Below are positions 2,301-27,061 of a DNA stretch of 33,758 bases, one piece after another (the stretch's first letter is position 1; each line of letters opens with the position of its first letter). The stretch is taken from assembly GCA_024277195.1 (NCBI GenBank), contig JAJRVS010000350.1, forward strand, positions 1 to 33,758, given 5' to 3'. The notes beneath the pieces were generated by a model. The model saw only the letters and a program-made list of their open reading frames with translations. It made no database searches and was not told the DNA's origin. The position numbers and the translations under genes were made by a program. This stretch comes from Verrucomicrobiota bacterium (GTDB taxonomy: Bacteria > Verrucomicrobiota > Verrucomicrobiia > Verrucomicrobiales > DEV007).

Positions 2301-3659
2301 ATGGAAAACAACTCATCTCCTTCAAATAAATCGCTAAGCCCCATTTTATTGCTGGTAGCGGCATTCGCGTTCTGCCTCATCCTTGGTGGAATCACTTTGG
2401 CAAAAAAATACGCCCCCAAAGCGCTAGCATCCAAAGAACGACATATTGTCAGGAGCGTAGCCTCCTCCCCCTTGAAAGGTAGAACCGCACGGGTTGACCC
2501 CGAACTGTTAAAAATCGGTGAAACCACATTCAATACTCTCTGTGTTGCCTGCCATCAACCTGGCGGTATTGGCAAAGTCGGTTTTGCTCCAGGTATCCGC
2601 AATCACGACTTTCTAGCCCTCGCCTCCGACGATTACCTTCGTAATACCATTCGTGCCGGCCGACCTGGCACAGCTATGGTTCCTTGGAGCGCCCTCAGCG
2701 AAAAAGAACTTGCCGGAGTGATCGCCTATCTGCGCACTGGCAATGAAGGTTATGTTTCCGAGCTTTCTCAGGATCCGGAAAAGAAAATCGCCGGGGCAGC
2801 AGGGAAAGGGAAAATCACTTTTGAAACCTATTGCGCCGCCTGCCACGGCCCCAATGCCGAAGGCTATGCCGCCGGAGGATCCGGACCTGGTATCGGACTG
2901 GCTGGTTTCCTTTCCGTGGCTTCCGATGACTTCATCATGCAGACCGTCAAACACGGACGCTCTGGCACCGCGATGCTGCCCTTTGTGGGTTCCAAAGGGC
3001 TCGCCAATTTATCGGAGAGTAGCGTCGGCGACATCATCGCTTATCTGAGATCCCTGCCCGGCAAACCGGTCGTAGCCGAAGCCAAAAGCACCGCTCCACC
3101 GGATCCCAAAGCCGGCAAAATGCACTTCGATGCCAACTGCATGGCCTGTCACCAACCCGGCGGCACCGGCAAAGCTGGTTTTGCTCCCAGTATCCGCAAC
3201 CGCGATTTCCTCGCCCTGGCCGACGATGACTTTATCCTCAAAACGGTGAAACAAGGCCGTCTGGGCACCGCAATGCTGCCCCGACCCGACCTTTCAGACA
3301 AAGTGATGGCAGACATCATCGCCTACCTGCGCTCGGTTCCAGCAAAAACCGTGGTCAATGTCAGTGTCGATCAGAGCAAAAAGTTCAAAGGCGACTCCCA
3401 ACAAGGGCATAGCAAATACACCTCCTACTGCCTTGCCTGCCACGGAGACAAAGGCACCGGTTACGTCGCCGGAGGGGCGGGCCCCGCGATTGGATTGGCC
3501 GGATTCCTCTCGGTCGCATCAGATGACTACATTTACCAAACCGTAAAACTCGGGCGCATCGGCACAGCGATGAAACCCTTCATCGGGAGCAAAGGCCTCG
3601 CCAACCTGAATGACCAGGATGTTTACGACATCATTTCCTATTTAAGAAGTTTAAATTAA
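2301..3659 (+). CDS. Membrane-anchored tetrahaem cytochrome c (four class I-like domains, ABAB)
   Basis: 452 aa. An N-terminal hydrophobic stretch (about residues 14-35) acts as a signal-anchor. Four CxxCH haem-binding motifs follow, at Cys81, Cys178, Cys280 and Cys377, each with a downstream GTAM that supplies the likely Met ligand. Domains 1 and 3 share a CHQPGG/GFAP pattern. Domains 2 and 4 share a CHG/AGG-GP-IGLAGFLSVASDD pattern. The gene is therefore a tandem duplication of a two-haem unit. It should face the periplasm and pass electrons. Being the first gene of the cluster and 21 bases before napA, it is the best candidate for the direct electron donor to NapA, in place of the absent NapB and NapC. 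That role is an inference. AGGAAA at 2284-2289 is a plausible ribosome binding site, 11 bases from the ATG. Confidence 0.9.
   Translation: MENNSSPSNKSLSPILLLVAAFAFCLILGGITLAKKYAPKALASKERHIVRSVASSPLKGRTARVDPELLKIGETTFNTLCVACHQPGGIGKVGFAPGIRNHDFLALASDDYLRNTIRAGRPGTAMVPWSALSEKELAGVIAYLRTGNEGYVSELSQDPEKKIAGAAGKGKITFETYCAACHGPNAEGYAAGGSGPGIGLAGFLSVASDDFIMQTVKHGRSGTAMLPFVGSKGLANLSESSVGDIIAYLRSLPGKPVVAEAKSTAPPDPKAGKMHFDANCMACHQPGGTGKAGFAPSIRNRDFLALADDDFILKTVKQGRLGTAMLPRPDLSDKVMADIIAYLRSVPAKTVVNVSVDQSKKFKGDSQQGHSKYTSYCLACHGDKGTGYVAGGAGPAIGLAGFLSVASDDYIYQTVKLGRIGTAMKPFIGSKGLANLNDQDVYDIISYLRSLN
2496..3656 (+). repeat. Internal tandem duplication of a dihaem unit in the cytochrome gene
   Basis: The segment coding residues about 66-254 (roughly 2496-3062) and the segment coding residues about 268-452 (roughly 3102-3656) are similar along their whole length. 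Each holds one type-A and one type-B haem domain. The second A domain keeps CHQPGG, GFAP, IRN and DFLALA. The second B domain keeps IGLAGFLSVASDD and GSKGLANL. Boundaries are approximate because they were read from the protein by eye. Confidence 0.85.
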
Positions 3660-3680
3660 TCACCAGAAACCCAACTAACG

Positions 3681-6299
3681 ATGAAAAGAAGAACACTATT
3701 AAAAAGCTCGGCAACTGCTGTTGCCCTATCAACCGGGGTGACCAAAACGGGATGGGCGGTACCTTCGGGTGATGAAATCGAGCTAGAAGGCAAAGAGGCC
3801 AAAACCGATTGTTATGCGGCTTGCCCTTATTGCGGAGTAGGTTGCGGAACTATCATTAAAACCAAAAACGGCCGTATCACCAACATCGTTCCGGATAAAG
3901 ATCACCCTACCAACAAAGGCCTGCAGTGCATCAAAGGCCTTACCTCGGCCGAGGCCATTTACGTCAATCGCCTGACCAAACCGCTAATCCGCAAAGACAT
4001 GTCGGATCCGCTGCGTGGCCATGTTTCCAAAACCAAAGGTTCCTACGATCCCGAACTGTTCCGCGAAGCCTCTTGGGAGGAAGCCGAGGAATTGATCGCC
4101 GAGCAGATCACCGAAATCATCAAGGAATCCGGCGGCAACTCCGTGGGACTCTACGGATCCGGACAACTTTCGCTAGAAGGGCAGTATCTGGAAAATATCT
4201 TCATGAAAGGTGTGATCGGCTCCAATACGATCGAGGCCAACGCACGTATGTGTATGACTTCGGCAGTGACCGGTTATTTTAAATCACTGGGCTCGGACAC
4301 TCCACCCACCTGTTACGACGATGTCGAACTGGCGGACATGATTTGTTTCTGGGGACACAATGCGCGTGGCGCCCATCCGATTCTATACTGGCGTGTCGCC
4401 GATACCAAGGCCAAACGCGACATTCCTACTCTAGTGGTCGATCCTCGCCGCACGGGTACCGTGATGGGCTTGGAGGATGTGGATAAAAACAACAGCTTCC
4501 ACTTCCCCACCATCAATGGTGATATTTCGATTCAAAATGCCATCGCCTGGGCGATTCTGAACAAACACCCCGAAGCGGTGAACTGGGAGTTCTTGAAAGA
4601 ACACACCTCCGGCTGGGAAAATTACATCAAAGAGGTCAAAGAGGGCTACAAACCCGAGGACGTCGAAGACCGCACCAAGATCCCCGCAGCCGAGATTTAC
4701 GAAATCGCAAAAATCTGGGCAGAAAAAAGTGTTCAGGGTCGCGAACGCGGCAGCGGTGGCGTGCTCTGTATCTGGGGCATCGGCTACAACCAGCACCTGC
4801 ATGGCCAGAACAATACCATGAGCCTGGTCAACTTGCTCGCTCTGACCGGAAACATCGGTCGTCCCGGTTGCGGACCTCACTCCCAGACTGGACAACCCAA
4901 CGCCATGGGAGAACGTCTCACCGGCGGACTCACCGGACGTTTGCCTTTTAATATCGGCATCAAGGATGACAAACACCGCAAATGGTGTGCCGAGCAATGG
5001 GGCATCCCGCAAGAGCGCCTCGACGCGGTCGCCAAAATGGAGAACGTCGGCATGGCCGTTGGCATGATGGAACGCGCACTGAAAGGCGAGGTCAAAGCAA
5101 TGTTCCTGATCTACGCGACTCACATCGACCTTCCCGATGCTTATAATCTGTCGCGACCAGCACTGACCAAAACCTTCACGGTGGCCCAGGAAATCTACAA
5201 AGACGCGCCCAACAATCTATACGCCGACGTGATTCTGCCCGCCGCCACTTGGGGCGAATGGGTCAACGGCATTTACATCCAATCGGAACGCCGACTCTAC
5301 ATCAATGAAGGCACCGGCAATCCGGTCAAGGGCTGCCGTCCGGACATGGACATGGTGATCGATAAAGGCAAGTTGATTGCAGAAAAACTCGGCCTCGATG
5401 CAGACAAAATCTTCCCTTACCAACGTAAGGAAAACGGTTTTTACGATCCCGAAGAAGTGTTCCGCGATTTCATCAAAGCCTCCAAAGGCAGCGACTGCGA
5501 TCTCACCGGCATCCTTGAAGTGGAAAAAGAAACCGGCAAGTCTCCTTATGAGCAGATCAAGGAACTGCGTGGCATCCAATGGCCGGCGCCAACCGCAGCC
5601 ATCGCCAAAGCCGGCGGCACCAAACGCCGCTACATGGGGCAGGAAGCCGCTTGGCCGGACAAACCCTATGCTGAGTTCCGTCACAAGGACGGCAAGATGC
5701 ACTTCAACATGTGCCATCAGGATTATTCCAACTATCGTGAGATCACCGACGAACTCTCGAAAGTGGGCGTCGAGCCAGGCTTTTACATCACCGATCACAT
5801 GGATCTACTGGTGAAAGCCCGTGACGCCGGACTGACCCCTGAGCTTCCGCACGCGGAGCACCTCGGCAAAAAAGCAGGCGAAGCACCCAAGGGAACCTAC
5901 CCTTTCTGGTGGGCCACCGGCGTGGTTTACGAACACTTCCACACCGCAAAAACCATCCGCGCGGGTACCACCAAAAAACTGGTGCCAGAGATGTACGTGG
6001 AAATGCATCCCGACGACGCCAAGGAACTGGGAGTCAAAGACGGACAGTGGGTCAAAATCACCACCCGTCGCGGATCGATCGAAGCCCGTGCTTCAGTCGG
6101 CCTGGATTCCGCAGTCAAACCAGCGCGTAATACCGTACCCAAAGGTTTCCTCTTCAGTCCGTGGAATCTGTCAGTGGCAGACTCAGCGGATCCGAAGAAA
6201 AACAAATGGTTGGCCAATGGCACCACTCACCGGGCCTTTGATCCGGTGTCGGGCCAGGCTGACTTTAAAAAATGCGCAGCGCGAGTAGAACTTCTGTGA
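3681..6299 (+). CDS. napA: Periplasmic nitrate reductase catalytic subunit, NapA type
   Basis: 872 aa molybdopterin oxidoreductase. The N-terminus carries a twin-arginine signal (KRRTLLK, residues 2-8, then a hydrophobic stretch to about 27), so it is folded and cofactor-loaded in the cytoplasm and exported by Tat. Cys48, Cys51, Cys55 and Cys83 bind a [4Fe-4S] cluster. Cys191 in ARMCMTSAVTGYF is the expected molybdenum ligand of NapA. The region CYDDVELAD, the GQPNAMGE motif and the C-terminal DFKKCAARVE ending are typical of NapA/NasA enzymes. The reaction would be nitrate to nitrite with two electrons. Tat export favours respiratory NapA over cytoplasmic NasA. Length is slightly above E. 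coli NapA. The usual partners NapB, NapC and the chaperone NapD are not found here. Related Mo enzymes with other substrates cannot be fully excluded. Confidence 0.93.
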   Translation: MKRRTLLKSSATAVALSTGVTKTGWAVPSGDEIELEGKEAKTDCYAACPYCGVGCGTIIKTKNGRITNIVPDKDHPTNKGLQCIKGLTSAEAIYVNRLTKPLIRKDMSDPLRGHVSKTKGSYDPELFREASWEEAEELIAEQITEIIKESGGNSVGLYGSGQLSLEGQYLENIFMKGVIGSNTIEANARMCMTSAVTGYFKSLGSDTPPTCYDDVELADMICFWGHNARGAHPILYWRVADTKAKRDIPTLVVDPRRTGTVMGLEDVDKNNSFHFPTINGDISIQNAIAWAILNKHPEAVNWEFLKEHTSGWENYIKEVKEGYKPEDVEDRTKIPAAEIYEIAKIWAEKSVQGRERGSGGVLCIWGIGYNQHLHGQNNTMSLVNLLALTGNIGRPGCGPHSQTGQPNAMGERLTGGLTGRLPFNIGIKDDKHRKWCAEQWGIPQERLDAVAKMENVGMAVGMMERALKGEVKAMFLIYATHIDLPDAYNLSRPALTKTFTVAQEIYKDAPNNLYADVILPAATWGEWVNGIYIQSERRLYINEGTGNPVKGCRPDMDMVIDKGKLIAEKLGLDADKIFPYQRKENGFYDPEEVFRDFIKASKGSDCDLTGILEVEKETGKSPYEQIKELRGIQWPAPTAAIAKAGGTKRRYMGQEAAWPDKPYAEFRHKDGKMHFNMCHQDYSNYREITDELSKVGVEPGFYITDHMDLLVKARDAGLTPELPHAEHLGKKAGEAPKGTYPFWWATGVVYEHFHTAKTIRAGTTKKLVPEMYVEMHPDDAKELGVKDGQWVKITTRRGSIEARASVGLDSAVKPARNTVPKGFLFSPWNLSVADSADPKKNKWLANGTTHRAFDPVSGQADFKKCAARVELL

Positions 6300-6330
6300 T
6301 GCTCGTCACTGCGACAAGAAAGTCTGAATC

Positions 6331-6984
6331 TTGTCTGAAAAACCATCACCTGAAAAAAGTAGCGGACTCAGTAGAAAACGCTTCATCGGCTCATTTGTTT
6401 TTGGATTAGGGGCAACCCTGCTATTGCCCCTGATCGAAAAACTGCCGATTTCCGCCCAGGTAAAACTGAAACGCTTCCTGCGCCCGCCGGGAGCGCAAAG
6501 TGAAGCGCTTTTTTTACAAAACTGCATCGCCTGCGGTCAATGCGCCAACGTCTGTCCCAACCAATGCATCAGCCTTTATGGGCTGGAAGCAGGATTGGAG
6601 AACCTAGGCACGCCACGCATCACCGCCCGCGCCCAAGCCTGCATTCTCTGCATGGCCTGCACCCAGGTCTGCCCCACCGATGCGCTTGAAAAACTCGAAC
6701 CCACCAAGGAAGGCAAACGTGCCGTGCAAATGGGCGTCGCTGTTCTTTCCGAGGATCTTTGTTACTCTTTTGCAGGTCGCACCTGTGGAGTCTGCTACCG
6801 CGCCTGCCCCTTGCCCGGAGAAGCGATGACCATCGGTCTATTTGAGCAACCCCACGTGCACGCCGAACACTGTGTCGGCTGTGGCCTGTGCGAACAAGCC
6901 TGCGTAAAAATGCCGCAGGCCATCCGTATTATTCCCCGTCTCGAACTTGAAAATGCGGCTAAATCCCAAACAGAAATATCATGA
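6331..6984 (+). CDS. napG: NapG-like ferredoxin, four [4Fe-4S] clusters (first copy)
   Basis: 217 aa, MauM/NapG family. Start is the TTG at 6331, preceded by an AAGAAAG-like ribosome binding site; it keeps the whole N-terminal export region. That region (SRKRFIGS at about 14-21, then hydrophobic to about 35) is Tat-like, but has Arg-Lys-Arg instead of a plain Arg pair. The RPPGA motif at 51-55 is a family hallmark. Four cysteine clusters follow: C65/68/71/75; the CILCMACTQVCP group; the CYSFAGRTCGVCYRACP group; and CVGCGLCEQAC near the end. All look complete. NapG proteins pass electrons from NapH-type membrane proteins towards periplasmic reductases. The gene follows napA by 31 bases and overlaps the next NapG copy by four bases (ATGA), so they are co-translated. 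Confidence 0.88.
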   Translation: MSEKPSPEKSSGLSRKRFIGSFVFGLGATLLLPLIEKLPISAQVKLKRFLRPPGAQSEALFLQNCIACGQCANVCPNQCISLYGLEAGLENLGTPRITARAQACILCMACTQVCPTDALEKLEPTKEGKRAVQMGVAVLSEDLCYSFAGRTCGVCYRACPLPGEAMTIGLFEQPHVHAEHCVGCGLCEQACVKMPQAIRIIPRLELENAAKSQTEIS

Positions 6985-7589
6985 TACGTCGAAAATTCAC
7001 TCGGATGGTATTGCGCACCATCGGCGTAAGCATCGCATCCTTTGCCGGACTCGGCGCTTTTGCCGGTTTGTTAAAAAGAAAAGCCGCGCCCAATCCCGTA
7101 ATAGGAGAACCCGAAATCATCCGTCCTCCCGGCGCCTTGGAAAAGGAAGCCGACTTTTTATCCCAATGCATCCGCTGTGCTCGCTGCCGCGATGCCTGCC
7201 CCACCGGCGCGATCAAACTGGGAGGATTCAGCGATCCTGCACAGCTGGGCACGCCTTACGTTTTGCCCTTTGAATCAGGTTGCAACTTGAGCCTCGCCTG
7301 CACCACCACCTGCCCCACCGACGCGCTGCAACTGCTGACCCTCACCAAAGACGTGAACATGGGACTTGCTGTGGTTGATGAACGCACCTGCGTTTCGTTC
7401 AATGGCACCGGAGTCTGCGGTGCGTGCCACACCGCCTGCCCCTTCAAAAACTTTGCCATCACCCAAGGCTCGCACAACGCCCCCACCGTTCACCAAGACC
7501 ACTGTGTCGGCTGCGGTTTGTGCGAAGAAGCTTGCATCGTTGATGGCATCAAAGCTATTCGAGTCTTTTCCGGAAGGGAGTCCCTATGA
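6981..7589 (+). CDS. napG: NapG-like ferredoxin, second copy, one cysteine ligand replaced
   Basis: 202 aa, a second MauM/NapG protein with only family-level similarity to the preceding one. It has a basic N-terminus (MIRRKFTRM), a hydrophobic segment (about 12-30) and the RPPGAL motif (about 48-53). Cysteine groups one (C63/66/69/73), three (TCVSFNGTGVCGACHTACP) and four (CVGCGLCEEAC) look complete. In group two, read as C101-S104-C107-C111, a serine (codon AGC at 7290-7292) stands where both the sister copy and E. coli NapG have cysteine. That cluster may be [3Fe-4S], serine-ligated or lost. The gene overlaps its neighbours on both sides by four bases. Export is likely by Tat or as a membrane-anchored protein, but the twin arginines (residues 3-4) are not followed by a perfect motif. 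Confidence 0.87.
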   Translation: MIRRKFTRMVLRTIGVSIASFAGLGAFAGLLKRKAAPNPVIGEPEIIRPPGALEKEADFLSQCIRCARCRDACPTGAIKLGGFSDPAQLGTPYVLPFESGCNLSLACTTTCPTDALQLLTLTKDVNMGLAVVDERTCVSFNGTGVCGACHTACPFKNFAITQGSHNAPTVHQDHCVGCGLCEEACIVDGIKAIRVFSGRESL

Positions 7590-8602
7590 GCAAATTATTC
7601 ACCACCCCATCCGGCTTTGCTGGTTCAACTCTAGTGCAAGTTCTACGCCATACGATCCGTTTGGCGATATTGCTAAGCATTATCGGAGTCGGCCTAGTGG
7701 CTCACTATCGGGTTTTTGTTACCAAGGAAAAAATCAATGTCATCCAGTCGGAAGACAACCCCAACCTGGCGCGCAAAACCGCCCTGATGATGCACCAGCA
7801 CCTACAAACTGCCGAAGCTCAACGGGGCGTCGAACAAAAACGCCTGTCCGATATTCGTGGAAACACCTGGTCAGCCGACATCTACGGCTTCAGCGTGACC
7901 GACCCTCTCGCCGGGGCAGAATCAGTGACTACCAGTCGCACCATCACCAAATCCCTGCTGATCGGCCTGGCTCTACCCGTGATCGCCACCCTGCTACTGG
8001 GACGCTTTTTCTGCTCGTGGATTTGCCCGGCAGGATTCCTCTTCGACATCGCCGACCGCCTGCGTGCCCTGTTGCAAAAAATCGGTGTGCCGGTGCATCA
8101 CCTTCACCTCTGGCGCGGCAATAAATACGTGCTGCTGGTGACCGGACTGATCATTGGCGCGGTTGTGGGCGTTCCTGTGCTGGGAGCTTTTTATCCACCC
8201 GCCGTACTCGGCCGGGAGATCAGCCACCTGACCGCCTCCTTTTTCTCCGTGCTCAGCGACTACCCTGTAGCCAGCGGAATCTCCCTCAGTGGACTGTTCA
8301 TCCTCGGCATCATCATCGCCGAAACCTTTGTCAGTCGCCGTCTGTGGTGTCGCTACGTCTGCCCCGGCGGCGCCTTGTATTCCCTGATTGGAATGGGACG
8401 AGCGGTGCGGGTTCACAACGACTTGAAACAATGCACCCGCTGCACCGAATGTGTGCAAGTCTGCCCAATGGGCCTCAACCCGATGAAAACAAAATCGCCT
8501 GGCATCGAATGTGACCAATGCATGCTGTGCCTGAACACCTGCCCGCCCGGATCGCTGAGCTTGCAATTCGGGCTAGCCAAACAAAACAAGGGGAATGACT
8601 GA
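7586..8602 (+). CDS. napH: NapH-like membrane iron-sulfur protein (first copy)
   Basis: 338 aa. A first membrane segment (about 25-41) is followed by a periplasmic loop of about 80 residues, then further membrane segments at about 121-139, 181-202 and 232-248. The NapH/NosR-type CxxxCP motifs are CSWICP (Cys143, Cys147) and CRYVCP (Cys255, Cys259). The cytoplasmic end carries two [4Fe-4S] ferredoxin motifs, C283/286/289/293 and C309/312/315/319. NapH proteins take electrons from quinol and hand them to NapG; that is family knowledge. The start overlaps the end of the preceding ferredoxin gene, which argues for a stoichiometric complex. It is longer than E. coli NapH mainly because of the periplasmic loop. 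Confidence 0.88.
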   Translation: MSKLFTTPSGFAGSTLVQVLRHTIRLAILLSIIGVGLVAHYRVFVTKEKINVIQSEDNPNLARKTALMMHQHLQTAEAQRGVEQKRLSDIRGNTWSADIYGFSVTDPLAGAESVTTSRTITKSLLIGLALPVIATLLLGRFFCSWICPAGFLFDIADRLRALLQKIGVPVHHLHLWRGNKYVLLVTGLIIGAVVGVPVLGAFYPPAVLGREISHLTASFFSVLSDYPVASGISLSGLFILGIIIAETFVSRRLWCRYVCPGGALYSLIGMGRAVRVHNDLKQCTRCTECVQVCPMGLNPMKTKSPGIECDQCMLCLNTCPPGSLSLQFGLAKQNKGND

Positions 8603-8625
8603 AACTGCAAATCCCGGCAGGCGAA

Positions 8626-8668
8626 GCGCCCGCCCTACAGACGCACCTCCTCATTGTAGGGCGGCCGC
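8626..8668. repeat. REP-like palindromic hairpin between the two napH-like genes
   Basis: Left arm 8626-8639 and right arm 8655-8668 pair at 13 of 14 positions across a 15-base loop. Both arms contain the core CCGCCCTACA or its complement. The 8603-8719 gap that holds it is the only gap of more than 50 bases inside an otherwise tightly packed cluster. Flanks (8611-8625 and 8669-8679) are GC-rich and loosely related to each other, as in repetitive extragenic palindromes. No run of T follows, so it is not a simple terminator. Confidence 0.6.
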
Positions 8669-8719
8669 TCCGGTTGCCCACTCAACCCACCCGACCTCAA
8701 TCCGGTCAACTGCTCCACT

Positions 8720-9679
8720 ATGAAATCAGGACGTCTGCTGCTGGCCATCTCCATCATCTCCCGAATCGGGGTGGTGACGATCCTCTGCGCCCTAGCTTTA
8801 TTAACCCATTACCACAATCTCAAAACCGCCTATAACCACCCCCGTCTGGTCGAACTCAGCAGCGGCAAAACAGCACGTTTTCTTTACCAAAGCAGCGACG
8901 ACTTTTTATCCTTGTTCGGTGACCCGCAACAAGTCGCCCGCAAAAGCGGCGGCATGACCTGGTCCATCCGCCTCGCCGGCATTCCTTTCACTGACCCCGT
9001 CGCCGCTCTCTCCGTCTTAGCAAAGAACCGCCGTTGGGAACTCGGTTTTGCCTTGGGACTGATCGTGCCCCTGAGCCTGGCTTTCATTTTTGGACGGGTT
9101 TTCTGCTCTTACATCTGCCCCGCCTCTCTCCTGTTTTTCTCCATTTCCCGACTGCGAAAATTGCTCTCCCCTATTTTCTTTTTCCCCGACCTCAAAATAA
9201 ACCGGGGGTTTTCCTGGGGGATCCTCGTCGGCGGCCTGAGTCTGGCCGTTTGGTACAGTCATGGCATTTGGATCCTCATCCTACCCTACTTTGCCATTGG
9301 CCAGACCATCTACGCCGGCATCGCCTCCGGCACCTTGTCGATTGCCCTTGGCAGCCTGGTGCTGTTCTGCTCCCTCGACCTGTTTCTCGGCAAACAATTC
9401 ACCTGCCGCTACGTCTGCCCGACCGGCCGCTTACTGGGTTTCATCGGCAGGAAGTCGCCGATCACCATCCAACGTGACAGCAGCGCCTGCCTCGATTCCT
9501 GCCAAAGTTGCATCGACGTCTGTCCAATGAAAGTGCAACCCAAATACGATCAAAGCATCGACTGCTCAATCTGTGGTGAATGCCTGACCGTCTGCCCACC
9601 GCAATGCCTCTCCATCGGCTTGCGCAAAAAAAACAAACCTTTTACCACACCGGTTGCTCACTCCAAAAGTTCCGCATGA
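8720..9679 (+). CDS. NapH-like membrane iron-sulfur protein (second copy)
   Basis: 319 aa. First membrane segment about 8-30, then a periplasmic loop of about 75 residues (to about 105), then membrane segments near 108-125, 165-195 and 198-220. CSYICP (Cys129, Cys133) and CRYVCP (Cys229, Cys233) are the NapH/NosR motifs. At the C-terminal end one cluster motif is spaced C257-x3-C261-x2-C264-x3-C268, one residue wider than the usual C-x2-C-x2-C. The second, C282/285/288/292, is normal. It is clearly related to the 7586 gene in layout but diverged in sequence, with a different periplasmic loop. The likely role is a second quinol-linked electron entry, or the partner of the second NapG copy. It is separated from the first copy by the REP-like hairpin and overlaps the next gene by four bases. 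Confidence 0.82.
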   Translation: MKSGRLLLAISIISRIGVVTILCALALLTHYHNLKTAYNHPRLVELSSGKTARFLYQSSDDFLSLFGDPQQVARKSGGMTWSIRLAGIPFTDPVAALSVLAKNRRWELGFALGLIVPLSLAFIFGRVFCSYICPASLLFFSISRLRKLLSPIFFFPDLKINRGFSWGILVGGLSLAVWYSHGIWILILPYFAIGQTIYAGIASGTLSIALGSLVLFCSLDLFLGKQFTCRYVCPTGRLLGFIGRKSPITIQRDSSACLDSCQSCIDVCPMKVQPKYDQSIDCSICGECLTVCPPQCLSIGLRKKNKPFTTPVAHSKSSA

Positions 9680-10293
9680 AAAAACAACTTCCCATCTTCT
9701 GGCCCAGCTTCTGCGCTATCTTCTTGTGCCTGCTTCCCCTGACCGCCGCAGCCCACCACTTCAAAGGGCTGCCGCACTACAACTATTTCGAAAACTACCC
9801 CGAGATCCCCGAAGACGAATTCCTCGGACAGGTCGGCGACTACGAAGTATCGCTAGTCGTCTATGACTTCCAAGGCATTCAACGGGAGAACGTCGATGAC
9901 CCCGACATGGTGCGCATGTTCCTAGTCATATTCAACCTGCGCAACAATGACATTTACGGTGGCCCTTTGACCCTCGAAGTGCTCGACAAAGGTAAAGTCA
10001 TCCACAGCGAACGACACAAATCCTCGGAACTCGAAAACCTCTACTCCATGCATCAGGATCTGCCCGACACTGGCAGCTATGCCCTTCGCTTGACCCTGCA
10101 CAGCGTCGATGATCTGCAGTGCGTGATCCCGTTTAAATTATCATCGCAAAAAATCCACTGGGGCAAATGGGTCGCCGGTTTCATGCTGGTAGTGATTGTT
10201 ATCGCCGCCATCGGGGCAAGAAAAGCCAGAGTCTCAATGGATCGCAAAGAAGAAGCTGGCAGAAGGAGAGAGGAGTTAGAAGAGAGCAATTAG
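9676..10293 (+). CDS. Exported, C-terminally anchored protein of unknown function in the nap cluster
   Basis: 205 aa. The start is set at ATG 9676, in a four-base ATGA overlap with the preceding napH-like gene; an in-frame upstream extension would run inside that gene. Residues 1-26 form a signal peptide ending TAAA just before HHF. The mature part (about 27-160) is soluble, acidic and rich in aromatic residues, starting HHFKGLPHYNYFENYPEIP. Its alternating pattern suggests a beta-sandwich. One membrane segment (about 172-188) is followed by a charged, Glu/Arg-rich cytoplasmic tail. It has no haem motif and only one cysteine in the mature domain. The topology is periplasmic domain plus one C-terminal anchor. 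I do not recognise the family. By position it may help assemble or couple the NapA electron chain, or bind a metal through the HH at the mature N-terminus; both are inferences. Confidence 0.75.
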   Translation: MKKQLPIFWPSFCAIFLCLLPLTAAAHHFKGLPHYNYFENYPEIPEDEFLGQVGDYEVSLVVYDFQGIQRENVDDPDMVRMFLVIFNLRNNDIYGGPLTLEVLDKGKVIHSERHKSSELENLYSMHQDLPDTGSYALRLTLHSVDDLQCVIPFKLSSQKIHWGKWVAGFMLVVIVIAAIGARKARVSMDRKEEAGRRREELEESN

Positions 10294-10338
10294 GATTTAA
10301 TATTTTCACCAAAGACCCAGCTTCTATCTACTAAAAAA

Positions 10339-11874
10339 ATGAATCATTCCGAGATGAGCGCAAGCGGTGGCCACATGATGGACGGCATTCCCGTGTGGAT
10401 GGGCATCGTAGGATTGGTCGCCATCATCATTTCCTCGCACCTGCTGGTGCGCTACCGCAAACCCTCCATCGAACTGATGGACTACCCGAAGTGGCGCTTG
10501 TTCAAGTTCAAATGGATCTCCGGTCTGGTGAAAAAATCCTGGTTTCCATTGTTAGTACAATCCCTGTCGATTTTCTTTTTCCTTCTAGTCATCACCGCCG
10601 GCCTGATAGGCAATGACAAACACAACATCGGCCCGGTTCTGACTTGGACCTGGTGGTGGGTGCTGCTGATCTTTCTTGCCATGGGATTCGGTAAAGTGTT
10701 CTGCATGATCTGTCCTTGGGAGGGCCTCTCTTCAATGATCACGTCTCTCTCATTCACCTCGCGGGTAAAAAAACTGGGCTTTGATCTGCCTTGGCCAAAA
10801 TGGGCACGCAACATCTTCCCCGCGATTATCTTTTTCATCATCCTCACCTGGTTCGAACTCGGTCGCGACATCACCCGCTCGGCGATGTGGACCTCCATCC
10901 TCGGACTGGTCATGGTCAGCATGGCGATCCTCTCCGCCATCATCTTCGAAAAACGTTCCTTCTGCCGTTACGGCTGCCTGGTCGGCCGCATCAGCGGTTT
11001 GTATTCACTCTTCGCCCCGGTCGAACTGCGCGCCGCCTCGGCGCAGGTCTGCGGCGATTGTAAAACTAAAGAATGTTACACCGGTACCGACACCACCACC
11101 GCCTGCCCCACCTTCCTCTTCCCCTCCAAGCTCAGTGAAAACTCCTATTGCACCCTGTGCACTGAATGTGTGCGCTCCTGTCCCCACGACAATTTGGAAA
11201 TCAATTTCCGCCCCATCGGCACCGACCTCAAGAACAAAGACAAATTCCAGTGGGACGAATCCATCCTCGCCGTCGTGCTGCTCTCACTAACCAGCTTCCA
11301 CGGACTCACTATGACTCCGCACTGGGGACACTGGAACGGCGTTCTGCGTGCTGAGACCGGCCTCGGATCCACCGCCGTCTTCACCATCCTGATGAGCCTG
11401 ATGATCATTCTGCCCATTCTACTTTTCTGGGTCGGAGCCAAAATTGCACGCAAACTTGCCCAGCCCACCGAGGTCAGTGCGGCAGAAATTTTCAAAGCCT
11501 TTTCCTACTCGCTGATCCCCATCGCCCTGTTCTATCATCTGGCGCACAATACCATGCATTTTTTCATGGAAGCCCAACACCTCACGCCACTGCTGAGCGA
11601 TCCTTTTGGTTTTGGCTGGGATCTATTCGGAACCGCAGGAAAAACCTACTTGCCACTGCTATCGCTCAATACCATCTGGTACCTGCAAATCATCTGCGTC
11701 ATCGTCGGCCACCTCTACGGCGTGGTGATGGCGGATCGTTTCGCTCGGCGTCTATTTGGCGACAGCCCGGCCGCCTTCCGCAGTTTGATCCCGCTTATTT
11801 TCACCATGATCCTCTACTCCAGCTTCAGCGTATGGTTGATCATGCAACCGATGGACATGCGCTCGGCGATGTGA
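10339..11874 (+). CDS. Large NapH/NosR-like membrane iron-sulfur protein with His-rich membrane domain
   Basis: 511 aa. The N-terminal half is like NapH/CcoG: membrane segments at about 20-37, 68-90, 103-121, 158-172 and 183-203, the motif CMICP (Cys122, Cys125), then CRYGCL (Cys209, Cys213). A cysteine-rich region follows with C238/C241/C246/C256, then a standard ferredoxin motif C271/274/277/281. The C-terminal 200 residues add about four membrane segments with many histidines: His321, 328, 331, then His400, 403, 407 and 414, then His458. NapH does not have this part. Such histidines could ligate haem b or another metal, or bind quinone; this is inference. It may be the quinol-oxidising hub of the cluster. 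The gene starts 45 bases after the unknown gene and runs to 13 bases before the last ferredoxin. Confidence 0.8.
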   Translation: MNHSEMSASGGHMMDGIPVWMGIVGLVAIIISSHLLVRYRKPSIELMDYPKWRLFKFKWISGLVKKSWFPLLVQSLSIFFFLLVITAGLIGNDKHNIGPVLTWTWWWVLLIFLAMGFGKVFCMICPWEGLSSMITSLSFTSRVKKLGFDLPWPKWARNIFPAIIFFIILTWFELGRDITRSAMWTSILGLVMVSMAILSAIIFEKRSFCRYGCLVGRISGLYSLFAPVELRAASAQVCGDCKTKECYTGTDTTTACPTFLFPSKLSENSYCTLCTECVRSCPHDNLEINFRPIGTDLKNKDKFQWDESILAVVLLSLTSFHGLTMTPHWGHWNGVLRAETGLGSTAVFTILMSLMIILPILLFWVGAKIARKLAQPTEVSAAEIFKAFSYSLIPIALFYHLAHNTMHFFMEAQHLTPLLSDPFGFGWDLFGTAGKTYLPLLSLNTIWYLQIICVIVGHLYGVVMADRFARRLFGDSPAAFRSLIPLIFTMILYSSFSVWLIMQPMDMRSAM

Positions 11875-11887
11875 TTCCTTCTATTTT

Positions 11888-12514
11888 GTGAGCTCTAACT
11901 TTTCCAGACGACAACTCTTCAAATTACGTCTCGGTGACGTCGGCAACCTCGTGCGCCAAGCTCGCCAGAGCCTCGTAGAGGAAAGCGCCGCTAAAGAATC
12001 GCCCGCTGCCGAACACCCGGCCGAAAGCATCAGCATCATTCGCCCACCCGGAGCCCTTTCACCCGACAGCGATTTCCTTGCCGCCTGCGAACGCTGCCAT
12101 GCCTGCGCCGACGCCTGCCCTCACGACGGCGTGATCCAAACCTTTGGCCCCTCCCACGGAGCCCACGAAGGCAGCCCTTTTCTCGACCCTGGGCAAGCCC
12201 CTTGCCGCTGGTGCTTCGACACCCCCTGCATCAGCGCCTGTCCCAGCGATGCCCTGCAAATCCCTAAATCAGACAGTCACGAACCAGAGTCCCTTGCCCC
12301 AATCGCCACCGCCGTGCTCGATCTCGACACCTGCCTCAATAATCAAGGCACCATCTGTGACACCTGCGCACTGATTTGCCCGCCCCACGTCAAAGCCATC
12401 AAAATGATCGGCCGGCAACCCCAACTCGATGCCGACCTCTGCACCGGCTGCGGCATGTGCGCCTATTACTGCGAATCAGAGCCCGGCTCGATCACGATTG
12501 TGCCACTCACTTAA
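11888..12514 (+). CDS. NapF/NapG-like ferredoxin, four [4Fe-4S] clusters, probably cytoplasmic
   Basis: 208 aa starting at GTG 11888, 13 bases after the preceding stop. The N-terminus SRRQLFKLRLGD resembles the start of NapF proteins and is not followed by a hydrophobic segment, so the product is probably cytoplasmic. The RPPGAL motif (about 52-57) and four cysteine groups are NapG-like: CERCHACADACP; CRWCFDTPCISACP (same spacing as NapG group two); the CLNNQGTICDTCALICP group; and CTGCGMCAYYC. All cysteine groups look complete. A role in maturing NapA before export, as proposed for NapF, or in cytoplasmic electron supply is inferred. It is the last gene of the cluster; the next genes are on the other strand. 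Confidence 0.83.
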   Translation: MSSNFSRRQLFKLRLGDVGNLVRQARQSLVEESAAKESPAAEHPAESISIIRPPGALSPDSDFLAACERCHACADACPHDGVIQTFGPSHGAHEGSPFLDPGQAPCRWCFDTPCISACPSDALQIPKSDSHEPESLAPIATAVLDLDTCLNNQGTICDTCALICPPHVKAIKMIGRQPQLDADLCTGCGMCAYYCESEPGSITIVPLT

Positions 12515-12543: not shown

Positions 12544-12610
12544 TTTCAACCATCAGTTGAAAATGGAAAGCGACATACATTATGTTTAAGTTTTTAACAT
12601 CAACTTAAAC
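12544..12610. terminator. Two inverted repeats between convergent genes, weak terminator candidates
   Basis: TTTCAAC at 12544-12550 and GTTGAAA at 12556-12562 make a 7-base stem with a 5-base loop, 29 bases after the last nap-cluster stop. GTTTAAG at 12584-12590 and CTTAAAC at 12604-12610 make a second 7-base stem that overlaps the end of the toxin gene. Neither has a clean T tract, and the second is AT-rich, so termination here is only a possibility. Confidence 0.35.
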
Positions 12611-13184
12611 TCCTCCCTCCCCTGCTAAAAAACCTTTCCGCCCAAACAGGTATCCTCTCCATCGTTTTTTGAAAAACCTCACCAGATCGAAATTCACCCA
12701 ATAGCCGAAAGGGAGTCTCATATGAGCTGTTATCATAAATGGTAACCCTCGGCAACAACACGATTGCTCGTTCCAAATTATCCAAATTTCGCAAGTAGCG
12801 AGCCACTATTTTTTCTTCTGGAACAGAATGCCCTCCTCGCTTGACACGAGATTTCACCCGCTTCACTGCCATAGCCGAATCATCAATTCCAATAAATATT
12901 AATTGAACATCAAAACCAGCTTCAACCGCTCCCGCCAAAAACTCAACCTTCTCTCCCACAGGGTCGGACAACACCGTTTCAGTCACAAAACTCTGTCCAC
13001 GCTCGACCATCAAACGACGAATAGCCGTCGTTTGTGATGCAGCTTCATATACACCCATGCCTGTTGATGCCCTCAAAACATCCGCGTTCAAAAAAGGAAG
13101 CTCTAAAGCAGACAAGTAAACACGGTGAAAAGTGCTCTTCCCTGCACCGTTGGGCCCAGCCAACATGATCAGAACCGGATCCAC
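12600..13184 (-). CDS. Zeta-toxin-like P-loop kinase (toxin of a type II pair)
   Basis: 194 aa, GTG start at 13184. The Walker A motif GPNGAGKST lies at residues 10-18, followed by the FLNADVLR-type stretch (about 31-38) and FVTETVLSDP (about 66-75), as in zeta toxin and related small kinases. Zeta toxins phosphorylate UDP-N-acetylglucosamine and block wall synthesis (family knowledge). Some relatives are simply P-loop kinases of unknown substrate. The start codon overlaps the stop of the small upstream gene by one base, so both are made from one mRNA. Pairing with a ParD-like protein rather than an epsilon antitoxin places it with the chromosomal zeta-like/ParD-like modules. Its GC content seems lower than the nap genes beside it (judged by eye), which suggests acquisition. 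Confidence 0.8.
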   Translation of the reverse strand: MDPVLIMLAGPNGAGKSTFHRVYLSALELPFLNADVLRASTGMGVYEAASQTTAIRRLMVERGQSFVTETVLSDPVGEKVEFLAGAVEAGFDVQLIFIGIDDSAMAVKRVKSRVKRGGHSVPEEKIVARYLRNLDNLERAIVLLPRVTIYDNSSYETPFRLLGEFRSGEVFQKTMERIPVWAERFFSRGGRSLS

Positions 13185-13462
13185 TACGTTTGAGAAACAA
13201 TGTTAGCACTCGTTCTCTGGATTTCCGCCTGCGCTTTTTTGATACCGCTACTGCTTCCTACCACCGATAGGGCTTCATCAATTTTTTTACGGTCAATGGC
13301 AGCGAGCATCTTCTTTTCAGCAGGATAAGATAAAGCCACCTCCATCACCCGCCCTATTGCCGCCCAATGTTCAATTTGTTGAGGAGGCGAGCGATGAAAC
13401 AACGCCGCCTGCTGCTTTGCCACCTCGGCGAGTTCATCACTGATGCGTATGGACTGACTCAT
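13184..13462 (-). CDS. ParD-like antitoxin
   Basis: 92 aa from ATG at 13462. A longer reading from 13507 is possible, but it would begin upstream of a likely operator and breaks the family pattern, so the inner start is preferred. The N-terminus MSQSIRISDELAEVAKQQA is a ribbon-helix-helix type start, followed by HRSPPQQIEHWAAIGRVMEVAL, typical of ParD-like antitoxins. The C-terminal half is charged and probably wraps the toxin. It lies directly upstream of the zeta-like toxin with a one-base overlap. It should bind DNA at its own promoter, where a palindrome is present. Confidence 0.78.
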   Translation of the reverse strand: MSQSIRISDELAEVAKQQAALFHRSPPQQIEHWAAIGRVMEVALSYPAEKKMLAAIDRKKIDEALSVVGSSSGIKKAQAEIQRTSANIVSQT

Positions 13463-13472
13463 ACTTTCACGC

Positions 13473-13497
13473 TGTGGCAATTTACCACAATTGTCAA
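13473..13497 (-). promoter_or_regulatory. Promoter/operator of the ParD-like/zeta-like pair
   Basis: On the minus strand a consensus -35 TTGACA (13492-13497) is followed at once by an imperfect 17-base palindrome at 13473-13489 (outer arms TGTGG and CCACA). The palindrome ends 10 bases before the ATG at 13462. A -10 box is not clear. The arrangement fits autoregulation by the antitoxin; function is inferred. Confidence 0.45.
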
Positions 13498-13558
13498 TCA
13501 ATATCACTATTCGACACCGCTCTCGCCGGGTGGGGACACCCGCGCTACGTCGCTATAT

Positions 13559-16384
13559 TCACTTCACCACCTTCATCACCCCGCGCATGATTCTCCAATG
13601 ACCGGGGAAAGTGCAGATATATGGATACTCGCCTGGTTTGTCGGGGGCAAAAAAGTTCAGGGTGTAAGAACGTGCAATGCCCAGAGTGATCTGCGGTGTG
13701 AAATGCAACACATCGGGATCGTCGGGCACGTAATTTTTATCCAAGCCGTCCGGTTGCCCCGCCATCATATCCGCTTTAGTTCCAATTTTGTCCAAAGCCC
13801 CCTCGTTCACAATCACCATATTATGGTAAAGGTTATCCGGATTGCGGAACAATAACTTCACCGCACTGCCGGCTTTCACCGAGAACTCGGTAGGCACAAA
13901 TTTCAAATCCGGAGTTGCCGATACGGTCACGCTCGAAAGCACACGATTGCTGTATTCCGGCGGCCATACACTGCTCGGGATGCGCCGCATCGCCTCGAGA
14001 GCGGAAAAAGCCAGAGCGATGTTTTTCTCAGCGTATTTATCCGATGTCGCCACCAACAACTTAAGACTCTGCTGGTCCTGTGACGGAAAACTGGCGATGG
14101 CAGGCATCATCGTTTTCACCAGACCTGCCGAGGACTTTTCCCCAGTGAGCAATTTGCTGAATCTTGGATACAAAGTATCCGGCGACTTGCCACGTCCCGC
14201 ACGGGTCACCGCCAGAGCCAACAGAGTATCGCTTTTTAACAAACGTCCTTCGCCACTTACTGCACCAGCACGCAATAACACCGCCTGCGCACCAGTACGC
14301 ACACTGGTGGCCTTACCCGCAGCCATCAGTGAAGCAATCGCATCCGCATGCTTCTTGCTGTCCTCGATCGGCCAGGCCAATAACATCGCCTCCAAAGCCG
14401 GCAAAGCCTTATCCGGTGTTTCGGCCGTGCTTTTTTCTAATCTTGCCAACAAATACTGCAACTCGTCTTTTTGCCCCGCTTGCCCCGCCAAGTAATCCAA
14501 AGCGCGACGATGCTGATCCGCTGTCAATTTAGGCCGACTAAGAATCTGATCCGCGACCGCGGGGCTCAATTCCATCGTCAGCAGCCGCTGCTCATTCGAA
14601 AACGGAAGCAAAAAATCGCTCACTTTCTCCACCGATGTATCCGTCTCACTGGTCAGATAAGTGAACCCATCGTAAGCCGCGTTCACACAACCGGCATCCA
14701 TCTCCTTATCCAGCACCAGCGCCGCCACCGGCAGCGCCTTATCCACATCGGCATAAAAACTAAGATCGATCAAGGCCTCGAGCCGCACCCGTTGGGAAGG
14801 GTCTTGGATCGCCGTTTTCAACAAAGCCAATACCTCCTTTTGATCCATCTGTGTTTGCCAGTAGCGCAATACTCTCAATGCCGCGGTGCGCACATGATGA
14901 TCCGGTGCCGCCAAAACAGTTTTTAATAGCGCAGTGTCATAGTCATTGAAGTTCTGGTGCAACCACAGCGCTTCGATCATTTTTTTGCCATCGTCCACTT
15001 TGGATACCGACAAGCCTGCTATCCATTTATCCACCACTGGCAACACCTCGCCAGCCTTGCGTTGATGCAGTTCATGCCGTGACAAATAACGCGCCCGTTC
15101 ATTGCTGTGATTCAAGTTAGCCAATAAAGCAGGCACCTCTTCACCATAAATTTTCGGCTGCCAGTCGAGCGGACGCGTTTTATGAGTGATACGCCACACC
15201 CGGCCGTGGGTTTTGATATGCCGAGGATCACGGAAGCTGTAAGTCGTATGACCAACAATCGGGTTATAATAATCCAAAATATAAAGTGCGCCATCAGGCC
15301 CGATCTGCTGGGCAACGGGACGGAACATGATATCACTGGTAGTCAGCAATTCGTTGTCCTCGCCGTAAGGCTGGCTCGCTTTCACTCCTGAACCGCTCTC
15401 CTCCAATTTATACCAGCGCACCCCATGCCAGCCTTTCATCTGATTGGTCAAATACCAACCCCGCACTTCCGGCGGAAAATGATTGGATGACAAAAACTCA
15501 TTGCCACAAGACGGACGACGCCCGGACGGAGTGAAAGAGACATCATTGCGACGCCCCATCCAGTTGCCATACTTATCTGGTTTGGGGTAAGTAAAATTAC
15601 TCGTCGTATGGGACATGTAATAATTCAACGCTGGTGAAGCATCGGCGAGAAAAGGCTGGCCCCAGCTATCAAAAACAATGCCCCAGACATTCGACCACCC
15701 AAAACTAGCGAACACCTCCAACTTATTGTCGCGAGGATCATGACGGAAAACCGCTGCCTGATGCGCACGCACCGGACCGTAAGTGGTCTCGACCTGGGTA
15801 TTCAGAAACAAGCCCTGGCCCGAATACAAACGCCCGTCCGGGCCCCACTGGAAAGCTGAGATGAAGTGGTGATTGTCCTCAGTACCAAACCCCTCCAGCA
15901 TGATTTGTTTTTCATCCGCCTTGCCATCACCATCGGTATCCGTCAAACGAACCAAGTTGGGTTCATCCGTGACATACACCGTCCTGCCTCCGTCCGCCAC
16001 TGCCAAGCCCAGAGGCAAATACAAACCTTCGGCAAACACCGTGTGTTTGTCCGCCTTGCCGTCCTTGTCCGTGTCCTCAAGAACAATCACCGAGTCTTTG
16101 ATCGGCACTCCGGGTTTGGCATGCGGCTGCGTCGGAATATTTCCCACCCACAAACGGCCGCGCGAATCAAAGGTCATCGCCGCCGGACTGTGCAAAGGGA
16201 ACTCAACTTCCGAAGCGTAAAGATTAATCTGGTAATCAGGATGAAGTTTGAACTTCTTCATCGATTCCTGAGGAGTGAGCAAGGGGGCCGCCTCACCACC
16301 AATCAAATCGGTAGCCCGGGCGGTTCCGCTAAGGCCAAACAGCCCCAGGGAAAATAATAACAGTGTGGAAAGAACAGGTTTCAT
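13559..16384 (-). CDS. PVC-type beta-propeller dehydrogenase with HEAT repeats and azurin-like domain
   Basis: 941 aa. Signal peptide about 1-24 (ending ARA). Residues about 40-410 match the membrane-bound dehydrogenase N-terminal domain typical of Planctomycetes and Verrucomicrobia: HPDYQINLYASE near the start, repeated DTDKDGKAD/DTDGDGKAD calcium-type loops, GPDGRLYSGQG, and GPDGALYILDYYNP. Residues about 420-770 are helical HEAT-like repeats. The C-terminal 110 residues are a cupredoxin with blue-copper ligands His854, Cys924, His929 and Met933; the spacing C-TFPG-H-x3-M is that of azurin. Many PVC relatives end in a haem c domain; here copper takes that place. It likely oxidises a sugar or similar substrate in the periplasm and passes electrons through its own copper site (inference). 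The start overlaps the stop of the SGNH-like gene by four bases, forming an operon. Confidence 0.88.
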   Translation of the reverse strand: MKPVLSTLLLFSLGLFGLSGTARATDLIGGEAAPLLTPQESMKKFKLHPDYQINLYASEVEFPLHSPAAMTFDSRGRLWVGNIPTQPHAKPGVPIKDSVIVLEDTDKDGKADKHTVFAEGLYLPLGLAVADGGRTVYVTDEPNLVRLTDTDGDGKADEKQIMLEGFGTEDNHHFISAFQWGPDGRLYSGQGLFLNTQVETTYGPVRAHQAAVFRHDPRDNKLEVFASFGWSNVWGIVFDSWGQPFLADASPALNYYMSHTTSNFTYPKPDKYGNWMGRRNDVSFTPSGRRPSCGNEFLSSNHFPPEVRGWYLTNQMKGWHGVRWYKLEESGSGVKASQPYGEDNELLTTSDIMFRPVAQQIGPDGALYILDYYNPIVGHTTYSFRDPRHIKTHGRVWRITHKTRPLDWQPKIYGEEVPALLANLNHSNERARYLSRHELHQRKAGEVLPVVDKWIAGLSVSKVDDGKKMIEALWLHQNFNDYDTALLKTVLAAPDHHVRTAALRVLRYWQTQMDQKEVLALLKTAIQDPSQRVRLEALIDLSFYADVDKALPVAALVLDKEMDAGCVNAAYDGFTYLTSETDTSVEKVSDFLLPFSNEQRLLTMELSPAVADQILSRPKLTADQHRRALDYLAGQAGQKDELQYLLARLEKSTAETPDKALPALEAMLLAWPIEDSKKHADAIASLMAAGKATSVRTGAQAVLLRAGAVSGEGRLLKSDTLLALAVTRAGRGKSPDTLYPRFSKLLTGEKSSAGLVKTMMPAIASFPSQDQQSLKLLVATSDKYAEKNIALAFSALEAMRRIPSSVWPPEYSNRVLSSVTVSATPDLKFVPTEFSVKAGSAVKLLFRNPDNLYHNMVIVNEGALDKIGTKADMMAGQPDGLDKNYVPDDPDVLHFTPQITLGIARSYTLNFFAPDKPGEYPYICTFPGHWRIMRGVMKVVK

Positions 16385-23681: not shown

Positions 23682-23728
23682 CCCTGCATGCCTTTGCCAG
23701 GAGAAAGAACCATTACAACCGTTCCACC

Positions 23729-25807: not shown

Positions 25808-25816
25808 AAGACTGCT

Positions 25817-27061
25817 TTGAACCATCATATTCCATACATCCTTACGGTTTTGACTGCGATGCTTCTGACGGCATCTGCTGTCGCAGCCTCCCAGCACCGC
25901 CCCGCCACCGCAGCGGAACTGATCGCCGTTTTATCTAACTGCGAAAATGGTGACGAAATAGTGCTGGAGAAAAGAGTTTTTATCGGCAATTTTCGCGTCA
26001 CCAATAGTATTACAATCACTGGCAAAGGGAGCATACTCGATGGCGACGGTCAGGGAACCGTGCTCACCCTCGATGCTCCTAATATCGTGGTAAATGGAAT
26101 TCAAGTGCGCAACAGTGGCACCGACCTCAGCGGACCCGATTGCGGAATCTATCTCAGTCCCGCCGCCGCGGGAAGCCGCATCTCTTCAAACCTGATTGAG
26201 CACTGCGCCTTCGGCATCTGGGTACACGAATGCCAGAGCGTCACCATCGAAAACAACCGAGTCATGGGAATCAAGACAGGGCACACCTCTAACCGTGGCA
26301 ACGGCATCCAGCTTTTCGACAGCACTAAAGTGACGGCACGCGGCAACACGGTGCGCGACGGGAGGGACGGGATCTACATTTCAGCCACCGAGGACTCCCT
26401 CATCGAGAACAACCACATCGAGGGAGCGCGCTACGGCATCCACTACATGTATTCCTATAGCAACACCGTGCGCGGAAATATTTGTCGCAACAATGGCAAC
26501 GGCTACGCACTGATGGAAAGCAAGCACCTTATCGTCGAGAACAATCTGTCCGAGAACAACAAGGGACAGGGTCTCCAGTTTCGCGATGCCCAATACTGCA
26601 CGATTCGAAACAACCGGCTTATCGGCAATGCCGAAGGGCTTTTTTTCTATTCCAGCACCAACAACAAGATCCTCGATAACTTGGTGAAAAACAACAAGGT
26701 GGGAGTCAAAATCTGGGCGGGCAGCCTTCGCAACCAAGTCGAGGGCAACCGCTTCATCGGTAACAGTCAGCAGGTTTTTTATGTCGGAACCACAGAGATT
26801 GAATGGGGCAGCGATAAACGCGGCAACTACTGGAGCGACTATCTCGGCTGGGATCAGGATGGCGACGGCATCGGAGACCGACCTTACCGAGTCAACTCGT
26901 TCCACGCCCGCCTGCTCTACCGCTTTCCTGCTGCCGCCCTATTGATGAACAGCCCTAGCCTGGAAACCCTTTCCCTGCTGGAGCGCCGCCTCCCCGTGTT
27001 GCGCACCCCCACGATCACTGACCGGAAACCACTAATGAACAACCCTGCTTCTGATGAATAG
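25817..27061 (+). CDS. nosD: NosD, periplasmic copper-site maturation protein
   Basis: 414 aa, TTG start at 25817, nine bases after nosR. That start yields a full signal peptide (about 1-24, ending AVAA); an ATG at 25859 would cut it short. The body is a right-handed beta-helix with regular N-x-x-x-x-N repeats such as IENNRVMGI, ARGNTVRDG, IENNHIEGA and VRGNICRNN, as in CASH/NosD proteins. A conserved NosD-like end GNYWSDYLGWDQDGDGIGD (about 336-354) precedes a short tail. NosD works with the NosFY transporter to build the CuZ centre, probably by delivering sulfur or copper. The stop overlaps the nosF start by eight bases. Confidence 0.95.
   Translation: MNHHIPYILTVLTAMLLTASAVAASQHRPATAAELIAVLSNCENGDEIVLEKRVFIGNFRVTNSITITGKGSILDGDGQGTVLTLDAPNIVVNGIQVRNSGTDLSGPDCGIYLSPAAAGSRISSNLIEHCAFGIWVHECQSVTIENNRVMGIKTGHTSNRGNGIQLFDSTKVTARGNTVRDGRDGIYISATEDSLIENNHIEGARYGIHYMYSYSNTVRGNICRNNGNGYALMESKHLIVENNLSENNKGQGLQFRDAQYCTIRNNRLIGNAEGLFFYSSTNNKILDNLVKNNKVGVKIWAGSLRNQVEGNRFIGNSQQVFYVGTTEIEWGSDKRGNYWSDYLGWDQDGDGIGDRPYRVNSFHARLLYRFPAAALLMNSPSLETLSLLERRLPVLRTPTITDRKPLMNNPASDE

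Follow-up and report, generated by a model that had tools for sequence, protein, structure and literature searches.

In the window (the whole stretch of 33,758 nt that was analyzed), a nine-gene operon encodes what is probably a quinol-linked periplasmic molybdenum reductase of a lineage separate from NapA, with nitrate as its most likely substrate. We assign this reading a probability of roughly 55%. The gene set, its conservation, the cofactor ligands, the separate clade, and the lack of NapB, NapC, and NapD are apparent from sequence; the roles of three members (H3, HH-Ig, and G3) are presumptive. The nine open reading frames are all co-directional at positions 2301-12514; no intergenic gap exceeds 117 bp, and several neighbors overlap by 4 bp. 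They are listed here together with a second cluster outside the operon that provides physiological context.

2301-3659, + strand: cyt4, membrane-anchored cytochrome of 452 aa with four class-I c-type domains (4 CxxCH; four Cytochrome_CBB3 matches)
3681-6299, + strand: NapA-like Mo-bisPGD reductase of 872 aa with a Tat-type N terminus (profile scores, tree, residues, structure model)
6331-6984, + strand: G1, exported NapG-type ferredoxin, conserved-core member (NapG model E 1e-40; TM/signal segment; Cys clusters)
6981-7589, + strand: G2, another exported ferredoxin of the NapG type, not required in the family (NapG model E 1e-38)
7586-8602, + strand: H1, NapH-type membrane ferredoxin, partner of G2 (NapH E 1e-33; 4 predicted TM segments; two 4Fe-4S motifs)
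8720-9679, + strand: H2, NapH-type membrane ferredoxin, conserved-core member (NapH E 3e-31; TM segments and Cys clusters)
9676-10293, + strand: HH-Ig, exported protein with a mature N terminus HHxxGxP, an Ig-like beta sandwich, and a C-terminal TM helix (alignment, structure model)
10339-11874, + strand: H3, long NapH-like polytopic Fe-S protein of 511 aa (weak NapH match; ~8-9 TM segments; 4Fe-4S motif)
11888-12514, + strand: G3, NapF-like ferredoxin (NapF-like by topology: no signal or TM segment)
21786-29256, + strand: nosZ-nosR-nosD-nosF-nosY-nosL, N2O reductase cluster (TIGR04244 921 bits, NosR 542, NosD 410; nosF, nosY, and nosL named from sequence only)

The first-pass annotation had described a co-directional cluster that includes NapA, ferredoxins of the NapG/F type (three), NapH-type membrane proteins (also three), a tetrahaem cytochrome, and an exported protein. 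Apart from the NapA label, that composition was confirmed, the third NapH-type protein matching weakly (27 bits). Membrane topology was derived from hydropathy. G1, G2, H1, and H2 have the folds, 4Fe-4S motifs, and membrane segments of NapG/NapH quinol dehydrogenases; their family matches fall under the curated cut-offs, yet reach E values of 1e-30 to 1e-40. G3 is probably cytoplasmic. For HH-Ig, the most likely start is position 9676, at an ATGA overlap with the preceding gene, rather than 9580. No FNR-type site was found near the operon, and FNR-type matches in the window were no more frequent than chance. Directly downstream, on the − strand, two overlapping small genes (12600-13507) resemble a zeta-toxin-like kinase and its antitoxin, and a further − strand gene (13559-16384) encodes a PVC-type haem-binding family protein (TIGR02604) with an apparent C-terminal cupredoxin domain.

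The catalytic subunit was compared with profile models, reference sequences, and structures. It scored 331 and 359 bits against the NapA models TIGR01706 and NF010055 (cut-offs 931 and 904) and 294 and 255 bits against the NasA models (cut-offs 1000 and 1100), so that no curated cut-off was reached. Identity was ~30% to NapA and likewise ~30% to NasA. A search of plasmid records for close relatives gave nothing above 60% identity; the best matches were again at ~30%, to NapA and NasA alike. In the phylogenetic tree, four separate clades were obtained, with support of 100/99 for NapA, 94/91 for NasA, 100/100 for Fdh, and 100/100 for the operon reductases, which sit on a long branch. The best tree joined the operon reductases to NasA without support; in topology tests, grouping with NapA (p-AU 0.42) and a position outside both NapA and NasA (p-AU 0.11) were not rejected. 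By these tests the group is not inside NapA, and NapA, NasA, or neither as its sister is compatible with the data. The N terminus, MKRRTLLKSSA, is Tat-like by eye, and the RR pair is present in relatives. The AlphaFold model (pLDDT 83) matched the monomeric NapA of Desulfovibrio desulfuricans (Dd) best (Z 43.4, rmsd 2.1 over 698 residues), followed by formate dehydrogenases (Z ~40), the remaining NapA structures (38-39), and arsenite oxidase (Z ~36).

Across about 80 sequences (80-81), the four Fe-S cysteines, the conserved Lys, Mo-Cys191, and Met192 are invariant, as are Asp206, Gln405, and Arg412, the equivalents of Dd-D155, Q346, and R354. The substrate channel of NapA comprises Arg354, Asp155, Glu156, and Asp355 (PMC13223375). 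The equivalents of Glu156 and Asp355 are Thr and Leu/Phe in the operon group and Ala and Leu in the source genome's own NasA; because that NasA has lost both acids too, their loss is no argument against nitrate. Two conserved pterin-contact residues of Escherichia coli NapA, Arg720 and Trp725 (PMC13223375), are replaced by Val748 and Phe753 in 81/81 sequences, a signature of the clade. Tyr58, conserved in heterodimeric Nap (PMC13223375), corresponds to Leu in 79/80 sequences when mapped here via Rhodobacter numbering, in keeping with the missing NapB. The protein resembles NapA and keeps the nitrate-reductase residues Mo-Cys, Met, Asp, Gln, and Arg, but its scores stay below half of the NapA cut-offs, and the tree places it apart from the NapA clade. 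The NapA label of the first-pass annotation is an overstatement, and because of these two results nitrate is a substrate that we can only infer.

The "tetrahaem cytochrome" of the earlier description does contain four CxxCH motifs; more precisely, an N-terminal anchor is followed by four cytochrome c domains of class I, which sets the protein apart from NapC and NapM. The domains follow an ABAB pattern, a dihaem protein duplicated in tandem: domains 1 and 3 are 53% and domains 2 and 4 64% identical, compared with 39-51% for the cross pairs. The dihaem version occurs in Pseudomonadota, Myxococcota, and Bdellovibrionota. A GTAM motif is present in all four haem domains and suggests His/Met ligation, which is typical of high-potential carriers. 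HH-Ig was rightly called an unknown exported protein. Residues H1, H2, G5, and P7 of its mature form are invariant in 36 sequences, neither sequence nor family matches were obtained, and Foldseek with the structure model (pLDDT 86) returned none at E ≤ 0.001. A likeness to the copper proteins P19/FetP and CrdA (Z ~10) is near the level of any common beta sandwich, and no function was drawn from it.

The source genome (5.49 Mb in 422 contigs, 95.6% complete, ~4% missing) was searched for the missing Nap components and for other nitrogen genes. Models for NapB, NapD, and NapC/NirT had no match in this 95.6% complete assembly, and all three found their E. coli controls; the absence of the trio from the cluster, pointed out in the first-pass annotation, thus extends to the whole source genome as searched, and it repeats in relatives. 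NapE, NapL, and NapM were not recognized in the operon. The source genome encodes the copper nitrite reductase NirK with a C-terminal CxxCH (361 bits versus a cut-off of 296; L128 4877-6376, G000:C372) and an assimilatory NasA with a NarK transporter nearby (L126 90-9153, G000:C157). Searches for NarG (beyond a 22-bit match), NirS, and a convincing NrfA were negative, and the operon reductase is the only candidate respiratory nitrate reductase found in the source genome. The nirK gene adjoins SCO-like and sulfatase-modifying-factor-like genes, and the NasA gene adjoins those of a flavoprotein and a fused DmsB/DmsC-like protein, unusual partners for NasA. The nos cluster in the window looks complete, with a TAT-type NosZ and NosR, in a verrucomicrobial genome. 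The congener of L007 carries a NirS cluster instead of NirK. A conserved linkage of nosZ to the operon was considered and rejected, as no nosZ turned up in the 100 kb searched on the congener contig.

One scan yielded 80 loci, ~58-96% identical and labelled as ten phyla (Verrucomicrobiota, Planctomycetota, Eiseniibacteriota, Cloacimonadota, Gemmatimonadota, Latescibacterota, Bdellovibrionota, Bacteroidota, Myxococcota, and Pseudomonadota), a count that is approximate because nearly all 80 loci are metagenome bins and two of the labels come from near-identical sequences. The latter are the operons L025 and L026, in MAGs labelled Gemmatimonadetes and Latescibacterota, one of which is probably mislabelled. 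A gene order shared by 80 loci across many phyla goes far beyond what chance would give. The core runs c-type cytochrome, reductase, NapG, NapH, HH-Ig, long NapH-like protein, NapF-like protein; the window's G2-H1 pair is optional and present in some loci only. Within the source order the distribution is patchy, with a copy at ≥79% identity in 7 of 387 genomes. Inside 21 operons, 20 of them labelled Pseudomonadota, lies a five-CxxCH gene of the NapC/NirT family. The reductase core accompanies NapGH everywhere, with a predicted NapC-family quinol dehydrogenase in addition in one group. This conservation as a unit across phyla, together with the failure to detect NapB, NapC, and NapD genome-wide, supports the earlier proposal of a separate type of complex without the trio.

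Strong NapB matches (E < 1e-20) were obtained in eight of the 51 operon-bearing genomes, which all belong to the pseudomonadotal portion of the tree; NapC was on the same contig in these eight and NapD in seven. NapD had no match in any verrucomicrobial genome among the operon-bearing genomes checked. The isolate Ruegeria sp. HKCCD8929, for example, carries its canonical nap set on a contig other than that of the operon, and a NapA of ~28% identity lies there with NapB/C. Since canonical nap sets and the operon coexist in the eight genomes, the operon is not simply a Nap system with parts replaced. Of the 51 genomes, 38 had no strong match to either NapB or NarG. Two neighborhoods were recorded separately. 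In a Thiotrichaceae MAG (L054 1679-11171), the opposite strand carries, within a few kb of the operon, a canonical NapA accompanied by NapG, NapH, and NapF-like genes, and this NapA groups with E. coli NapA in the tree. In a Kiloniellaceae MAG (L055 930-6626, − strand, JAJFGJ010000032.1), an AioA-like large subunit, a Rieske-type small subunit, and two MauG/dihaem peroxidases, the gene set of the iodate reductase idrABP1P2, lie ~2 kb upstream of the NapA-like operon.

In the proposed mechanism, the NapH-type proteins H2 and H1, perhaps with H3, would oxidize quinol and pass electrons to the NapG-type ferredoxins G1 and G2; from there they would reach the membrane-anchored class-I cytochrome and, through the [4Fe-4S] cluster, the Mo-bisPGD of the reductase. 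This route, suggested in outline by the first-pass annotation, is plausible, with a presumed order of transfer, and is consistent with the joint occurrence of cytochrome, NapG, and NapH with the reductase across phyla. The reductase would then convert nitrate to nitrite, and the products could be processed further by the NirK and NosZ that this genome encodes. G3 might help with cofactor insertion in place of NapD, and in many pseudomonadotal versions a NapC-family quinol dehydrogenase would be added. The retained Mo-Cys, Met, and equivalents of Dd-D155, Q346, and R354 argue for nitrate, as does a structure model nearest to D. desulfuricans NapA. On circumstantial grounds, nitrate is also the simplest substrate because the source genome has NirK and NosZ and no NarG or canonical Nap, a set that suits nitrate reduction as the entry into denitrification, and because 38/51 genomes lack strong NapB and NarG matches. 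The position outside the NapA clade, Val and Phe at the Arg720 and Trp725 positions, and the lack of nosZ linkage in the congener speak against it, and a second nitrate reductase would be redundant in the eight genomes with canonical Nap.

A wider proposition, which we consider less likely than not, is that the group stands as an independent lineage next to NapA, NasA, and Fdh. It would be a respiratory molybdoenzyme, widespread and mostly aquatic, that has its own electron-transfer module and acts on a non-nitrate substrate or on nitrate where Nap/Nar fail, and annotation as napA would have hidden it. Reduction of another oxyanion or oxide, such as iodate, selenate, or chlorate, through the same electron chain is somewhat unlikely. 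The separate clade on its long branch, Val748 and Phe753, the coexistence with canonical Nap, and the AioA/IdrA-like cluster near one operon would suit such a substrate, but the Cys-Met ligand region, Asp, Gln, and Arg match NapA and NasA, NirK and NosZ are encoded in the source genome, and the Idr-like neighbor was seen at 1/80 loci.

The main alternative for electron entry keeps nitrate as the substrate and lets bc1 or alternative complex III feed the class-I cytochrome, with the NapGH-type proteins serving maturation or redox balance. The GTAM motifs suggest a cytochrome of the high-potential type that would fit this entry, and Qcr input to Nap is reported for Campylobacter jejuni (PMC6195509). 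The operon, however, has no bc1 or alternative complex III gene, NapG and NapH are conserved with the reductase everywhere, and NapGH of Wolinella is an accepted menaquinol dehydrogenase, as cited in PMC12780646; we consider this entry route improbable. Very improbable is an oxidizing enzyme related to formate dehydrogenase or arsenite oxidase that feeds electrons into the cytochrome, since the fold matches to both are countered, and both identities set aside, by the active-site residues and the tree: Cys-Met stands at the Mo site in 81/81 sequences where FdhF has Cys/Sec-His, Arg occupies the Dd-R354 position where FdhF has Cys, the Cys ligand is present where AioA has none (PMC10100899), and Fdh forms a separate clade.

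With this operon, a mode of nitrate or other oxyanion respiration may have escaped notice. In metagenome surveys, nitrate reducers are counted from their napA matches. If Verrucomicrobiota, Planctomycetota, Myxococcota, and other phyla carry a distinct lineage, often in genomes where no other respiratory nitrate reductase was found, then either the nitrate reducers gain a large group or part of the napA counts reflects another process. Moreover, the occurrence of the same catalytic core with NapGH alone and with NapGH plus a NapC-family gene makes the quinol dehydrogenase that feeds Nap-like enzymes testable by comparison.

Nap systems free of NapB or of NapC are already known: Wolinella Nap lacks NapC and Sporomusa napGHCAD lacks NapB (PMC12780646), and the nap cluster of Caldithrix abyssi comprises NapM, NapA, NapG, and NapH with neither NapB nor NapC (PMC5317091). 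The gene content of the operon matches none of the types napEDABC, napDAGHB, napCMADGH, and napAGHBFLD (PMC13223375). No such group is described in the available part of a large superfamily phylogeny (PMC10100899), and the literature searched, which was covered in part, yielded no description of the operon. D. desulfuricans napCMADGH, with monomeric NapA and the tetrahaem NapM, has the closest fold and, like the operon and the Caldithrix cluster, combines a cytochrome with NapG/NapH in the absence of NapB. The operon reductase is nevertheless a separate lineage from D. desulfuricans NapA, the enzyme of these two systems that the tree covered, and compared with both systems the operon has class-I cytochrome domains instead of NapM, lacks NapD, and has H3 and HH-Ig in addition. 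The NapC-independent napAGHBFLD of Wolinella succinogenes shares NapGH as presumed quinol dehydrogenase and a NapF-like protein, whereas the operon has no recognized NapB, NapD, or NapL-type gene and uses another catalytic lineage and another cytochrome. Sporomusa ovata and Selenomonas (L120) napGHCAD have NapG and NapH and no NapB, as in the operon, but keep NapC and NapD (PMC12780646), and the Selenomonas enzyme falls inside the NapA clade. NasA resembles the reductase in its similar ~30% identity, the GQPNAMG-x-R spacing, and the loss of the Dd-E156 acid; unlike the reductase with its putative Tat signal, it has no Tat signal or NapGH partners, and it forms a separate clade. The apparently unstudied features of the operon are its separate catalytic lineage, its class-I cytochrome partner, the HH-Ig protein and the long NapH-like protein, the absence of NapD, and its spread across phyla.
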